From the NCBI GenBank assembly GCA_028276365.1, contig JAPYWL010000046.1, positions 1-9,571 on the forward strand: a stretch of DNA of 9,571 nucleotides. The letters are read 5' to 3'. Under the pieces are notes generated by a model. It was not told where the DNA came from. It made no database searches and was given only the letters and a program-made list of their open reading frames with translations. Made by a program: the position numbers and the translations under genes. The stretch is from Deltaproteobacteria bacterium (GTDB taxonomy: Bacteria; DRYD01). Shown here piece by piece: positions 1,540-7,846 of the stretch. The first letter of the stretch is position 1. The number at the start of each line of letters is the position of its first letter.

Positions 1540-2127
1540 ATGTTATCCTTAGCTAATAGATATGCAGACTCACTTTTTGAAATAGCTGCTAAATATAACT
1601 TAGAAGAAACTATCCTAAAAGAATTAGAAAATTTTTATAATCTAATAAATAAGGATAAATTAATTGATGAGATTTGGCATTCAAAATCTTTAACCACATC
1701 TGATAAATCTAATATGCTTATAGATCTATTACCTTTTAATTACCTTACTAAAGAGTTTTTAAAACTAATAGCTTCTAAAAAACGAGAAAAACTATTAAAA
1801 CTTATTATTTACTATTATAAAAAAAACTATGAAAACAAATATGGAATATTTGAAGGAACCCTAATTTTAGCTAAAAAAATAGATAACCTTATTCTAAATG
1901 AACTTCTAAAAAGTATAGAAAAAATATTAAATAAAAAAATATTAGTAAATCAAATAAAAATAAATCCAGAAATTATGGGAGGATTTATCTTAATTAGTGA
2001 TGAAACTATTTTAGACTATTCTATTAAGAACAACTTTGAAAAACTTTTAAAAGAAATAAATATTAATATAGAAAAATTCCTACTTAAATCTAATTTATTT
2101 AGCAAAATAAATTACAACTTAAATTAA
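1540..2127 (+). CDS. atpH: F1Fo ATP synthase subunit delta (OSCP family), away from an atp operon
   Basis: Subunit delta sits on top of F1 and joins it to the peripheral stalk (subunit b) of the proton- or sodium-driven ATP synthase. The 195-residue protein is slightly longer than the usual ~180. The N-terminal helical domain begins with the family pattern LANRYADSLFEIA (4-16). Helices continue to about residue 105. The C-terminal domain holds the diagnostic segment INPEIMGGFILISDETILDYSIKNNFEKL (141-169), matching the family's P-x-x-x-GG-F...D-x-S-x-x-x-x-L pattern. Residues 180-195 are a short tail that varies in the family. The ATG at 1540 follows a strong GGAGGAG (1529-1535). In most bacteria atpH lies between atpF and atpA. 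Here it sits between a SRPBCC gene and rplQ, so the other subunits must be encoded elsewhere. Confidence 0.9.
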   Translation: MLSLANRYADSLFEIAAKYNLEETILKELENFYNLINKDKLIDEIWHSKSLTTSDKSNMLIDLLPFNYLTKEFLKLIASKKREKLLKLIIYYYKKNYENKYGIFEGTLILAKKIDNLILNELLKSIEKILNKKILVNQIKINPEIMGGFILISDETILDYSIKNNFEKLLKEININIEKFLLKSNLFSKINYNLN

Positions 2128-2143
2128 TTAGATTAATTAAATA

Positions 2144-2203
2144 GGATTTGGTAAAAATATATTTGATTTCCGCTTAATCTGGGAGCGGAATATAAATCCC
2201 CAG
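2144..2203 (+). promoter_or_regulatory. Predicted pseudoknot RNA in the rplQ leader
   Basis: Seen directly: TTCCGCT (2168-2174) is exactly complementary to AGCGGAA (2184-2190), giving a 7-bp stem with a 9-nt loop. The loop contains CTGGG (2179-2183), exactly complementary to CCCAG (2199-2203) just 3' of the stem, so an H-type pseudoknot can form. In addition GGATTT (2144-2149) can pair with AAATCC (2194-2199) as an outer helix. The outer helix and the pseudoknot compete only for base 2199, so GGATTT/AAATCC and CTGG/CCAG fit together side by side. It ends 24 nt before the rplQ ribosome-binding site. This G/C cluster stands out in an A/T-rich gap. No T tract follows on either strand, so it is not a standard terminator. 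I do not recognise it as any named riboswitch. Its position suggests control of rplQ translation or mRNA stability, which is inference. Confidence 0.5.
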
Positions 2204-2238
2204 AAAAATAAAATAAAAAATAACCTAGGGAGTAAATT

Positions 2239-2679
2239 ATGAGACATAGAAGAAGATATAAGAAATTAAGAAGATATAGTGAGCATAGAATTTCTATGTT
2301 AAAAACTTTATTTAAGAATATAATAAATAGTCCAAAACTAGAAATAGTAACTACTATATCACGAGCCAAAGCCTTAGTTAATTATTCTTCTAAATATATT
2401 ACTTTTGCTAAAAAAGCTGCTAAAATTAAAGAATTACTTAATAATGCTCCTGAAGAAGAGAAACCTAAACTTAGAACCCAATTAGTTAATTTCTCTAGAA
2501 AAATATATTCAGTGTTAAGGGATAAAAAAATGGTTAAAGCTTTAATAGATTTAGGCGTAGTTTTAAATTCTGCTAAAAAAGGAGAAAGTGGTAGTGTTGG
2601 GGGCTATTTTAAAATATATAGACTAGGTTTTAGAAGAGGAGATGCTGCACCTGTTGCTTTAGTTAAATTAGTATCATAA
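2239..2679 (+). CDS. rplQ: 50S ribosomal protein L17
   Basis: Large-subunit ribosomal protein that lies near the peptide exit tunnel. The protein has 146 residues, within the upper part of the bacterial range. It starts with the family N-terminus MRHRRRYKKLRRYSEHRISML (compare MRHxxxxxKLGRxxxHRxAML; the usual Gly of LGR is Arg here). The core follows with SRAKALVNYSSKYITFAKKA, the SVLRDKKMVKALIDLG helix, and the highly typical C-terminus GGYFKIYRLGFRRGDAAPVALVKLV. A Glu/Pro-rich segment near residues 70-76 (NAPEEEK) and a Lys/Gly/Ser stretch near 115-121 look like small lineage-specific insertions. The ATG at 2239 has GGGAG about six bases upstream. In most bacteria rplQ closes the alpha operon directly after rpoA. 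Here it follows atpH and a 111-bp gap with a structured leader, and precedes tlyA. Confidence 0.95.
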   Translation: MRHRRRYKKLRRYSEHRISMLKTLFKNIINSPKLEIVTTISRAKALVNYSSKYITFAKKAAKIKELLNNAPEEEKPKLRTQLVNFSRKIYSVLRDKKMVKALIDLGVVLNSAKKGESGSVGGYFKIYRLGFRRGDAAPVALVKLVS

Positions 2680-2700
2680 AATCACATTTTATTTATTAAA

Positions 2701-3489
2701 GTGAAAGATAAAGAAAATCAAACTGTAAATAAAAATAAATCACTAAAACTAAGGTTAGATGAATATTTAGTTATTAATAAGTACGTAGATAGTAGAGTAT
2801 TAGCTCAAAAATTAATCTTAGATTCTAAAGTTTTTATAAATAATATAGTAATAAATAAGCCAAGTTACAAAGTTAAGGAAAACGATACAGTTAAGGTAGA
2901 ATTAAATAATGAGAGGTATGTATCTAGAGGGGGTTATAAATTAGAAGCAGCTATTAAAGAATTTAATATAGATGTAAAAGATAAAGTTTGCTTAGATATA
3001 GGAGCTTCTACAGGAGGATTTACTGATTGCATGTTATATCATAATGCTAAATTAGTTATAGCCTTAGATAATGGATATAATCAGCTACATCCTAAACTAA
3101 GAAATAATTCCAAAGTCATAAATATAGAAAAATTTAATGCCAAAGAAATACATACTATATATGATAAATTAGTATCTTATGGTAAGATAGATATAATTAC
3201 AATAGATGTATCCTTTATCAGTGTTTTAAAAATATTTGAATCACTTAATAGATGTAATTTAGACAATGTTAAGATAATTCCCTTAATTAAACCTAATTTT
3301 GAGCTTAATAAAGATGAGAGAAAGTATATAAAAAAAGGTGTTCTTAAAGATAAAAAAATTATATTTAAAGTAGTATTAAGAGTTTTAAAAAATATAAGAA
3401 AAATGGGATTTGTTTTTAAAGGAATTATTAAATCCCCTATTTTAGGAACTAAAGGAAATCAAGAGTTTTTGGCTCTATTTGAAAAATAA
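2701..3489 (+). CDS. tlyA: TlyA-type rRNA (cytidine-2'-O)-methyltransferase
   Basis: S-adenosylmethionine-dependent methyltransferase of the TlyA family, often annotated as hemolysin. Characterised members 2'-O-methylate cytidines in 16S and/or 23S rRNA. In 262 residues it shows an N-terminal S4 RNA-binding domain (KLRLDEYLV...SRVLAQKLI, about 16-75), the linker VSRGGYKLEAAIKEF, and a FtsJ-like Rossmann methyltransferase domain. The SAM-binding loop is LDIGASTGGFTDC (98-110), and the DVSFIS motif is at 169-174. The K-D-K-E tetrad of the family appears as K80, D169, K197 and E255. The start is a GTG 21 bp after rplQ, and no Shine-Dalgarno sequence is visible. No other ATG or GTG lies in frame between the rplQ stop and the S4 domain, so GTG at 2701 is the best choice. 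Whether the target is 16S, 23S or both cannot be read here. Confidence 0.92.
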   Translation: MKDKENQTVNKNKSLKLRLDEYLVINKYVDSRVLAQKLILDSKVFINNIVINKPSYKVKENDTVKVELNNERYVSRGGYKLEAAIKEFNIDVKDKVCLDIGASTGGFTDCMLYHNAKLVIALDNGYNQLHPKLRNNSKVINIEKFNAKEIHTIYDKLVSYGKIDIITIDVSFISVLKIFESLNRCNLDNVKIIPLIKPNFELNKDERKYIKKGVLKDKKIIFKVVLRVLKNIRKMGFVFKGIIKSPILGTKGNQEFLALFEK

Positions 3490-4236: not shown

Positions 4237-5298
4237 ATGAATATTTTAGATAAATTATTAATACTTATGTTTCAGCAGAACGCTGAAAGTATCTTCTTTA
4301 TTGAAGGTAATGAACCTTTTATGAAATACAAAGATGGAAAACTACAAAATTTAGTTGACGAAAAATTAGATAAAGAACAAATAGAAGAATTAATAAAAAT
4401 ATTTTTAAGTGATAAAGATAGAATTGAATTAAAAAAATGGGGATATTGGTTAGGGAATTATACTACACCTAATAATTTAACTTTTAAAGGAATTTCTTTT
4501 TACCAAAAAGGAAAATTAAGCATAATATTTTACCCTGCTATAGTTGAGAGTTATTCTATCCAAGATTTAGATTTACCTCCTATTTTTGTTGAGGCTTTAA
4601 ATAAGAATAAGGGATTAATAATAATAAGTGGGCCTAGGAAAAGTGGGAAAACTACTATTTTTAATAGCTCTATTGAGTATATACTTAATAATAGATCTAT
4701 TACGCTTGCTACTGTTGAAGATTTCATTGAAAAAGAGTTTACTAATTCTAAAGGAATTGTTTATCAATTTTTAGTAGGTAAGGATTATAGTAATCTTAAA
4801 GAAGTTTTAAATATAATAAGAAGGGTTAAACCAGATGTCGTAGCTATTCAGGAAATAGTTAATTACGATTATCTTAGTTTAGCTTTGGATTTAGCCTTAA
4901 GTGGATTATTAGTTATTTGTACTTTAAATGCTGATGGTATAATTTCTGCGTTTGAAAAAATTGGTGGTATGGCAGGAGATCAAAAAGAAAACGTATTTAG
5001 ATACTTATCTATGGTCTTAGAAATATTAATTTCAGGTAATCTTTTTCAAACTACTGAAAATATTTTAAAATATGTATATGATTTTTATTTTAATGATATT
5101 GAATTTATAAAGAATATAGCAAAGGGAGATATAACTGAAGTTTATTTAAAGATGGTAGAAAGAAGGGAAAAAGGATTTAGGGTTCAAGAGTATACTTTAA
5201 AAGCACTTATAAAGAAAGGTTTAATAAAGGAAGAAGAAGCTATTTTAAAAGCTGCTAGACCTAATGAATTAAAAAAAGTACTTGCTGCTCCTTTTTAA
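4237..5298 (+). CDS. Divergent PilT/GspE-family secretion-type ATPase
   Basis: A 353-residue protein, the usual length of PilT, the hexameric ATPase that retracts type IV pili. The N-terminal PAS-like domain is about residues 1-100, then the RecA-like core. Walker A is ISGPRKSGKTT (130-140). The Asp-box region is TVEDFIEKEF (159-168). The Walker B region reads KPDVVAIQEIVNYD (198-211): its glutamate (E206) is kept, but the preceding Gly and following Arg-Asp of the usual VGExRD are replaced. The His-box of PilT (SGHLVFGTLHT) reads SGLLVICTLNADG (222-234), with both histidines gone. The C-terminus, KKGLIKEEEAILKAARPNELKKVL, matches the PilT tail. The ATG at 4237 has a strong AAGGAGGT. No other pilus or secretion gene is nearby. 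The fold is confident. Pilus retraction is not, and it may be a repurposed or regulatory paralogue. Confidence 0.75.
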   Translation: MNILDKLLILMFQQNAESIFFIEGNEPFMKYKDGKLQNLVDEKLDKEQIEELIKIFLSDKDRIELKKWGYWLGNYTTPNNLTFKGISFYQKGKLSIIFYPAIVESYSIQDLDLPPIFVEALNKNKGLIIISGPRKSGKTTIFNSSIEYILNNRSITLATVEDFIEKEFTNSKGIVYQFLVGKDYSNLKEVLNIIRRVKPDVVAIQEIVNYDYLSLALDLALSGLLVICTLNADGIISAFEKIGGMAGDQKENVFRYLSMVLEILISGNLFQTTENILKYVYDFYFNDIEFIKNIAKGDITEVYLKMVERREKGFRVQEYTLKALIKKGLIKEEEAILKAARPNELKKVLAAPF

Positions 5299-6487: not shown

Positions 6488-7846
6488 ATGAATTTAAATG
6501 TTTTTTTAATAAAAAAAATACTTAAAAAAATTATTTTTATTCTTTTTGTTATTTTAGTTTTTTTTATTAATAATTCGTTTGTAGATCAGTATGGTAATGA
6601 TATAACTATAAAGCCTTGGGTTTCTAAAAATGTCGTCTCTTTAGGAGAAACATTTTATTTAAAAATAAATATTCATTTTAAAAGTCCTTCTAAAACTCAT
6701 TGGTATGTAGATAGTAAATTTAAATTGCTAAAAATAGAAGAATTCCTTAATAATTTTACCGTTGTCTCTCAATCAATTGATACTACCGTTAATCAAACTA
6801 ACGATTATGATATAATGGATTTAAGTTATACGTATGTATTACAAGCAAGATCAGTGGGGGATTTCACTTTAAAGGATATAGGCTTAATGTATTATGTTGT
6901 TGATAACAATAATACTTATACATTATATGCTAATATGGATAACAATGATGCAATAACCATAAAAGTAGTTAATACTCCAAATACAACTACTCCAAATTTT
7001 CCTAATAATCCTAATATTCCTAATAATCCAAATACCCCTAATAACCCAAATATGCCTAATACCCCAAATACTCCAAATATCCCTAATAATCCCAATAATC
7101 CCAATAATCCTAATAATCCTAATAATCCTAATTTTCCTAACACTCCACCTACCACTTCATTTCCTAATCTTCCAAATCCTTTTACTACCAATCCTACTCC
7201 TAATTATCAAAACCCATTTACTAATACCAATCCTACTAATACTCCTCCTAATAACCCTTATTTAACTAATACTACTACTAATGTAGATGAGAGTAATTAT
7301 GTTAATATTTTATTAATGGTTTTAGGGGGATTAATTGCTTTAGTTATAGTTATCCTTGGAATATATTGGATATATAAGATCTTATCTACTCCCCCTAAAA
7401 CTGAAACAATTTCAAAAGATCAAGATAACCAAGTTTTAACATTAGATAAATTTGAGAAAGCTAAATCTGAAGTAATAGAAAAAATTAATTTAGTTGATTA
7501 TTCCAAGGTTAATTTTTATTCTAAATTAGATGAATTAAAAAGGAATTCACAATATGAAAAATGGGAAGACCTTAAAAATAATCTTAGTTTGCTTATTTAT
7601 CATTTATACTATAAAATAGACTCTATTTTTAATAAAGGAAATTTAAAGGAATCCTTAGAAATTTTAAAAAATATCAATAAAGAAAGTTATGAACTTATTT
7701 CTAATCTTTACAATAAAGTATATAAATTTTTATTATATGATTTTGATCAATTAGATAATTATCAGAAAAAAGAATTTGTTAATGAAATTACTAAAGAACT
7801 AGAAAAAGTTTATAAAAGTATTTCTGATTTCAAAGTTTATAAATAA
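6488..7846 (+). CDS. BatD-like membrane protein with Pro-Asn-rich linker
   Basis: A 452-residue protein of uncertain function, with clear architecture. A hydrophobic N-terminal segment (about 9-28) acts as signal peptide or anchor. Residues 38-160 form a beta-rich extracytoplasmic domain beginning ITIKPWVSKNVVSLGETFYLKINI. This resembles the repeated beta domains of BatD ('oxygen tolerance') proteins, as does the later LQARSVGDFTLKDIGLMYY segment. Residues 162-268 are a low-complexity linker of P, N and T, largely PNN and PNT units. A second membrane span is at 272-299 (LLMVLGGLIALVIVIL), followed by a Lys/Glu-rich helical cytoplasmic domain (about 300-452). This signal-beta-TM-cytoplasmic order matches BatD, but no BatA, BatB or BatE gene is seen. 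The ATG at 6488 follows GGGG (6477-6480). The call rests on topology and weak pattern matching. Confidence 0.55.
   Translation: MNLNVFLIKKILKKIIFILFVILVFFINNSFVDQYGNDITIKPWVSKNVVSLGETFYLKINIHFKSPSKTHWYVDSKFKLLKIEEFLNNFTVVSQSIDTTVNQTNDYDIMDLSYTYVLQARSVGDFTLKDIGLMYYVVDNNNTYTLYANMDNNDAITIKVVNTPNTTTPNFPNNPNIPNNPNTPNNPNMPNTPNTPNIPNNPNNPNNPNNPNNPNFPNTPPTTSFPNLPNPFTTNPTPNYQNPFTNTNPTNTPPNNPYLTNTTTNVDESNYVNILLMVLGGLIALVIVILGIYWIYKILSTPPKTETISKDQDNQVLTLDKFEKAKSEVIEKINLVDYSKVNFYSKLDELKRNSQYEKWEDLKNNLSLLIYHLYYKIDSIFNKGNLKESLEILKNINKESYELISNLYNKVYKFLLYDFDQLDNYQKKEFVNEITKELEKVYKSISDFKVYK
7082..7132 (+). repeat. In-frame 9-bp tandem repeat encoding Pro-Asn-Asn
   Basis: Inside the linker of the BatD-like gene, the unit CCY-AAT-AAT repeats head to tail more than five times with only C/T change at the third base of the Pro codon. 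It is the purest part of a longer degenerate array of PNN, PNT, PNI and PNF codons (about 6971-7132). Gain or loss of whole 9-bp units keeps the frame, so linker length could vary between strains. On the opposite strand the array gives an open LGLLGL reading frame, which is a by-product of the repeat. Confidence 0.85.

Follow-up and report, generated by a model that had tools for sequence, protein, structure and literature searches.

The accepted determinants of bacterial start sites are Shine-Dalgarno (SD) pairing, an unstructured start region, ribosomal protein S1, or a leaderless 5' end. The RepZ/RepA pseudoknot of the IncI-alpha, IncB and IncL/M plasmids (work credited to Asano & Mizobuchi 1998 and Athanasopoulos 1999) is reportedly short, lies just upstream of a start codon, promotes translation, and adjoins the stop codon of an upstream frame. 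In preQ1 riboswitches an A-rich strand runs along the stem. Some leaders of r-protein genes, such as those of the S4 alpha operon and S15 rpsO, carry a pseudoknot at the ribosome-binding site that serves gene-specific autoregulation. Studies of the repZ/repA plasmid pseudoknot are cited in PMC10724649. Standby-mediated initiation on tisB requires a pseudoknot, and in a related toxin mRNA a pseudoknot governs translation of the toxin (PMC7708055, PMC11228461). The dicistrovirus IGR IRES, a pseudoknotted intergenic RNA, drives translation in E. coli, where its tertiary structure is dispensable and S1 and an SD-like element are required (PMC9458429). S1 on the 30S subunit normally binds and unfolds mRNA in E. 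coli (PMC3858243).

We analyzed a stretch of 9,571 nucleotides from a Deltaproteobacteria bacterium (the window), in which an H-type pseudoknot occupies positions 2168-2204 between an atpH-like gene and rplQ. The coordinates of its parts and of the neighboring genes are listed in the table. The initial annotation had noted three nested complementarities here, and all of them were located as claimed: GGATTT (2144-2149) with AAATCC (2194-2199), TTCCGCT (2168-2174) with AGCGGAA (2184-2190), and CTGGG (2179-2183) with CCCAG (2199-2203). The second and third, which form helices P1 and P2, are far above chance level and recurred among 105 parsed copies from six genomes, while the outer helix proved to be a chance match. 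A 6-bp match of that kind was found in 6.7% of copies versus 7.7% with shuffled flanks, it was missing from the G001 orthologue, and it is incompatible with the pseudoknot because it would sequester the conserved linker together with some of P2. By minimum free energy folding alone, the pseudoknot region was not unusual (z -1.1). The gene order over 1540-3489 is atpH-like, rplQ and tlyA-like, with rplQ apart from rpoA and no other atp gene adjoining the atpH-like gene. Elsewhere in the window, a long Pro/Asn-rich repeat tract (NPNxPN...) was seen at 6961-7290 within a predicted membrane protein (6488-7846).

Table. Positions of the pseudoknot strands and the genes around them in the window
Feature	Position	Strand	Remarks
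P1, 5' strand	2168..2174	+	TTCCGCT; conserved core CCGCT at 2170-2174; pairs with 2184-2190
P1, 3' strand	2184..2190	+	AGCGGAA; GCGG nearly invariant across copies
P2, 5' strand (hairpin loop)	2178..2183	+	TCTGGG; pairs with 2199-2204
P2, 3' strand (tail)	2199..2204	+	CCCAGA; swap test and covariation
Linker L3	2189..2197	+	AATATAAAT; family consensus NATANAAAT
rplQ Shine-Dalgarno	2227..2232	+	AGGGAG
rplQ, ribosomal protein L17, gene served by the window's copy	2239..2679	+	TIGR00059, E 4e-13, below curated cut-off
atpH-like upstream co-directional gene	1540..2127	+	named from sequence resemblance; no pseudoknot, strong SD GGAGGAG

When the leader was compared with related genomes by blastn, short matches appeared before other genes. 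Copies were collected by this search, then by a pattern search and two covariance models, and 105 were parsed. The consensus, about 36 nt in size, consists of P1 (CCGCY/RGCGG), the linker NATANAAAT, and the loop-to-tail helix P2. The CCGCY core was present in nearly all of the 105 copies, and P1 was nearly invariant save for its fifth pair, which was T-A in 52, C-G in 25 and T-G in 17 copies and which also covaried among 64 distinct aligned cores. In the linker, A2, A6 and A7 were found in 105/105 copies, A4 in 104/105 and T3 in 103/105; the linker probably lies in the minor groove of P1. The sequence of P2 was free and its complementarity was kept: 99/105 copies scored as strongly paired, versus 18% when tails were swapped between copies and 5.5% after shuffling. 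All six P2 pairs showed two-sided changes, with four to six pair types each in the 64 distinct aligned cores, and this signal was destroyed by sliding the partner one base. Pairing in that alignment is necessarily 100%, since the P2 register was picked per copy, and the fair, unbiased test of P2 is therefore the swap of tails. The compensatory changes among relatives' copies bore out the pseudoknot proposed before rplQ, and covariation establishes the structure; the function is inferred. Loop 2 was expanded to more than 30 nt in some copies. An extra helix, P0, formed by the 5' flank with loop 2, gave three mutually crossing helices at L127 585-660, L135 565-670 and L301 1487-1560; it was seen in the G147 copy and in an orthologous pair of G000 and G001.

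Each of the six genomes of the family (G000-G005) had the pseudoknot: between 11 and 16 copies per genome passed E<=1e-3, and between 14 and 33 passed E<=1. Chance matches are to be expected among the weaker hits (E<=1), many of which come from G001, and the model E-values are rough because calibration was short; we put the copy number at roughly 15-30 per genome. In G006, of the sister family in the same order, no convincing pseudoknot rose above noise. Among the several hundred other genomes in two samples, each of 386, there was a single match in all, before argG in the complete genome G147, with P1, P2 and a matching linker. Two further hits were set aside: the one in G392 did not keep the consensus core, and the one in G404 (L304, near contig position 52000) was marginal, with CCGCA/TGCGG, a possible 7-bp loop-to-tail P2, AATAGAAAT, and no clear downstream gene. 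A viral origin was rejected, in that at least 120 IMG/VR stretches matched the core pattern and only 17 of the 85 retrieved reached the pairing score, about the swap-control rate; these look like chance matches in coding DNA. The copies are likewise not a mobile repeat of the REP or MITE kind, as P2 and the flanks differed between copies with pairing kept, copies with a callable gene all stood before start codons, and the targets were common to several species. The initial annotation could match the element to no known class, and Rfam 15 agreed: the window, the G147 copy and three other copies all scored below gathering threshold, with no relevant match. No account of this pseudoknot family was found in the open-licence papers searched. 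By these searches the pseudoknot is a so far undescribed RNA structure, dispersed within one bacterial family.

With start codons called from open reading frames, 104 of the 104 copies with a callable gene ended 4-55 nt before the start codon, mostly at junctions within operons. The distance to the upstream gene varied by genus. In the sister genus, P1 mostly began 0-5 nt beyond the stop of a co-directional gene, occasionally overlapping that codon, and in the window's genus the gap from stop codon to P1 was mostly 17-55 nt. The downstream gene was constant between species: cutA, an aldolase gene, acpP and a BioF/Kbl-like gene each kept the pseudoknot in front of them with other upstream neighbors from one species to the next. 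The pseudoknot is attached to the downstream gene, not to the upstream one. At least 47 downstream gene families were counted, most of them non-ribosomal. By NCBIfam they included rpsB, rpsD, rplE, rplL, rplQ, rpmE, rpmF, ssb, tig, frr, acpP, gapA, mdh, nuoE-like, jag, acetate-CoA ligase and the CRISPR gene csm2; recA, rpsO, atpH, alaS and asnS were named by sequence resemblance only. Many of these genes encode products that are usually needed in quantity. In two species (L123, L163), the pseudoknot precedes csm2 in a presumed type III-A CRISPR operon. Two copies followed a tRNA-Leu rather than a protein gene. These tRNA-Leu(CAA) genes (L127 500-585, L135 479-565) end about 16-36 nt upstream of the pseudoknot, and the RNA may therefore begin at the tRNA-processing site.

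Since the downstream families are so many and unrelated, the element is probably not a regulator of rplQ or of r-proteins. The initial annotation had suggested a leader bound by L17 or another r-protein, explained by the departure of rplQ from its usual operon, but the same element stands before all of these families. Furthermore, rplQ orthologues in the sister genus have no pseudoknot and carry a strong SD in its place. Autoregulation by L17 is thus not supported. Membership in the class of r-protein autoregulatory leaders is not supported either, for the element is not restricted to the genes or operons of one r-protein, its 47 downstream clusters being mostly non-ribosomal; the pseudoknots of the S4 and S15 leaders are gene-specific, whereas this one serves at least 47 families.

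The closest working analogue is the RepZ/RepA pseudoknot, with which the present family has in common a loop-to-tail pseudoknot just before the start codon of the gene served. It differs in that RepZ/RepA concerns a single plasmid gene with long-range pairing and antisense control, whereas the present family is dispersed over chromosomes, and no common consensus is known. One common antisense RNA aimed at P2 is unlikely because the P2 sequence differs between copies. The standby pseudoknot of tisB (PMC7708055) is a second working analogue. The tisB and toxin-mRNA pseudoknots lie at a distance from the start codon or close to the 5' end of the mRNA, serve one gene each, and have no common motif; unlike the present family, neither the repZ/repA nor the tisB pseudoknot is dispersed over many genes. 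preQ1 riboswitches (PMC11625349) are likewise compact H-type pseudoknots near the ribosome-binding site, but the present family has no Rfam match, no queuosine genes downstream, and no conservation of loops 1 and 2. A preQ1 identity was rejected on the lack of a consensus match and on downstream genes unrelated to queuosine or preQ1.

We further compared SD strength, scored as duplex energy, between genes with and without the pseudoknot. Of the genes behind a pseudoknot, 34-36% reached an SD duplex of -4.4 kcal/mol or lower versus 52-54% of control genes, with controls that included a 585-gene sample from two genomes, with 800 kb of stretches used, and with an anti-SD sequence that was assumed because the 16S rRNA gene was not found in the assembly of the window's genome. 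Among orthologues in nine gene families, 13 of 13 pseudoknot-less leaders had a strong SD (-7.8 to -12.9 kcal/mol), and pseudoknot-bearing orthologues had a weaker SD in nine of nine families. Essentially no SD was present at the pseudoknot-bearing atpH, rplE, PilT-like ATPase and argC-like leaders. The exchange can be followed gene by gene. Of the two signals, the window's atpH-like gene carries only the SD, and its G001 orthologue only the pseudoknot. The PilT/GspE-like ATPase gene of the window (4237-5298) likewise carries a strong SD alone, where its orthologues in G003, G004 and G005 carry the pseudoknot alone; a further orthologue, that of G002, has an SD. The exchange would be an indirect sign that formation of the pseudoknot may raise translation, as in the RepZ type. 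The substitution is incomplete, because about a third of the copies, the window's included, keep a usable SD. The rplQ copy keeps both the pseudoknot and an SD, whose duplex energy is about -7.4 kcal/mol with an assumed CCUCC-type anti-SD, and its long spacer (34 nt) is without a hairpin. Of the 23 spacers of at least 24 nt, 18 held a hairpin abutting P2 (9% in shuffles). Collapsing this hairpin left 11-16 nt to the AUG in nearly all of them, the same distance as in most short spacers. An element recognized by the initiating ribosome would have to keep such a fixed distance to the AUG. In the G147 copy the spacer folds up to the AUG, and equal spacing is not claimed for it.

Ribosomal protein S1 was sought with an S1-domain search and with an rpsA model. 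In the six family genomes the domain search gave single-domain matches only, the best being PNPase, and the rpsA model detected no S1 protein in these assemblies, which are 71-90% complete. The same model found S1 in G006, G147 and other genomes tried, and the S1 protein of G006 has four S1 domains. Judging by the agreement of the six incomplete assemblies, S1 was apparently lost in the whole family; it is unlikely that six joint absences are assembly gaps. The loss coincides with the pseudoknots in one clade, which is suggestive and represents a single evolutionary event; in the lone copy outside the family, the host G147 has S1. The present family is in this respect the reverse of the IGR IRES in E. 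coli, with the structure conserved and S1 apparently absent.

Several functions could be considered for such an element. The near-invariance of P1 and the linker beside a variable P2 is what a recognition site would show, translation genes are numerous among the targets, and the location is as for pseudoknots of the S4, S15 or preQ1 type. These features would suit a regulatory leader, in which a single protein, be it an r-protein or a global RNA-binding regulator, or a single metabolite binds and thereby turns a regulon's translation on or off. However, targets as unrelated as the ribosome, glycolysis, csm2, acetate-CoA ligase and trigger factor suit no single metabolite, loops 1 and 2 hold no conserved ligand pocket, and a pure switch does not predict the exchange with SD, so that we consider a regulatory leader unlikely. 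An element of mRNA processing or stability appears improbable. It would have the knot block exonucleases (RNase J or PNPase) or mark a cut, giving a stable 5' end and higher expression of the downstream cistron, and it would fit the intercistronic placement, the abundance of targets with products needed in quantity, and the two copies just behind a tRNA, where tRNA processing would expose the knot near the 5' end; yet it predicts neither the fixed distance to the AUG nor the strong SDs of orthologues that lack the element.

The position of P1 at the stop codon in the sister genus, where it mostly starts within 5 nt and sometimes overlaps, would be expected of a coupling device, in which the ribosome terminating on the upstream gene melts the knot and the downstream start opens only if the upstream gene is translated. 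The wider gap that prevails in the window's genus, and the copies behind tRNA genes or in intergenic regions without adjacent upstream translation, make coupling quite improbable. Finally, the resemblance of the linker to a -10 box and the palindromic CCGC...GCGG might point to an element at the DNA level, namely an operator of the inverted-repeat type that overlaps a TATAAAT promoter box. DNA would have no use for a fully covarying match between loop and tail, a search of the pseudoknot site gave no promoter-like pair, and most copies sit inside operons at a position tied to the AUG. The promoter or operator reading was rejected on the P2 covariation and the lack of a promoter-like site, and it is very improbable.

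We favor a role in translation initiation: on comparative sequence evidence, the pseudoknot is probably a translation-initiation element in the mRNA for the gene just downstream, and the best reading is that it would substitute for or supplement the SD at internal cistrons. On the 30S subunit the folded pseudoknot would dock at the mRNA exit or platform side, some 11-16 nt before the start codon, and would activate initiation by holding or positioning the mRNA there for start selection. Initiation at internal cistrons could then run with little or no SD pairing, and the benefit would arise where S1, which usually binds and unwinds mRNA at that site, is missing. The likely recognition surface would be the scarcely varying P1 and linker, with P2 needed only as a helix. 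More tentatively, and with the case for and against nearly in balance, the S1-less lineage may rely on a dispersed pseudoknot some 36 nt long for a second general initiation signal, independent of the SD, at operon-internal cistrons; this would be a bacterial equivalent, spread over many genes, of structure-driven internal ribosome entry. If this is true, a conserved fold that alternates with the SD from gene to gene among related species would add to the known kinds of start signal, the loss of S1 would be tied to a compensating innovation in the mRNA, and the fold itself would offer a ready-made part, variable in sequence and conserved in shape, for setting start sites within operons.
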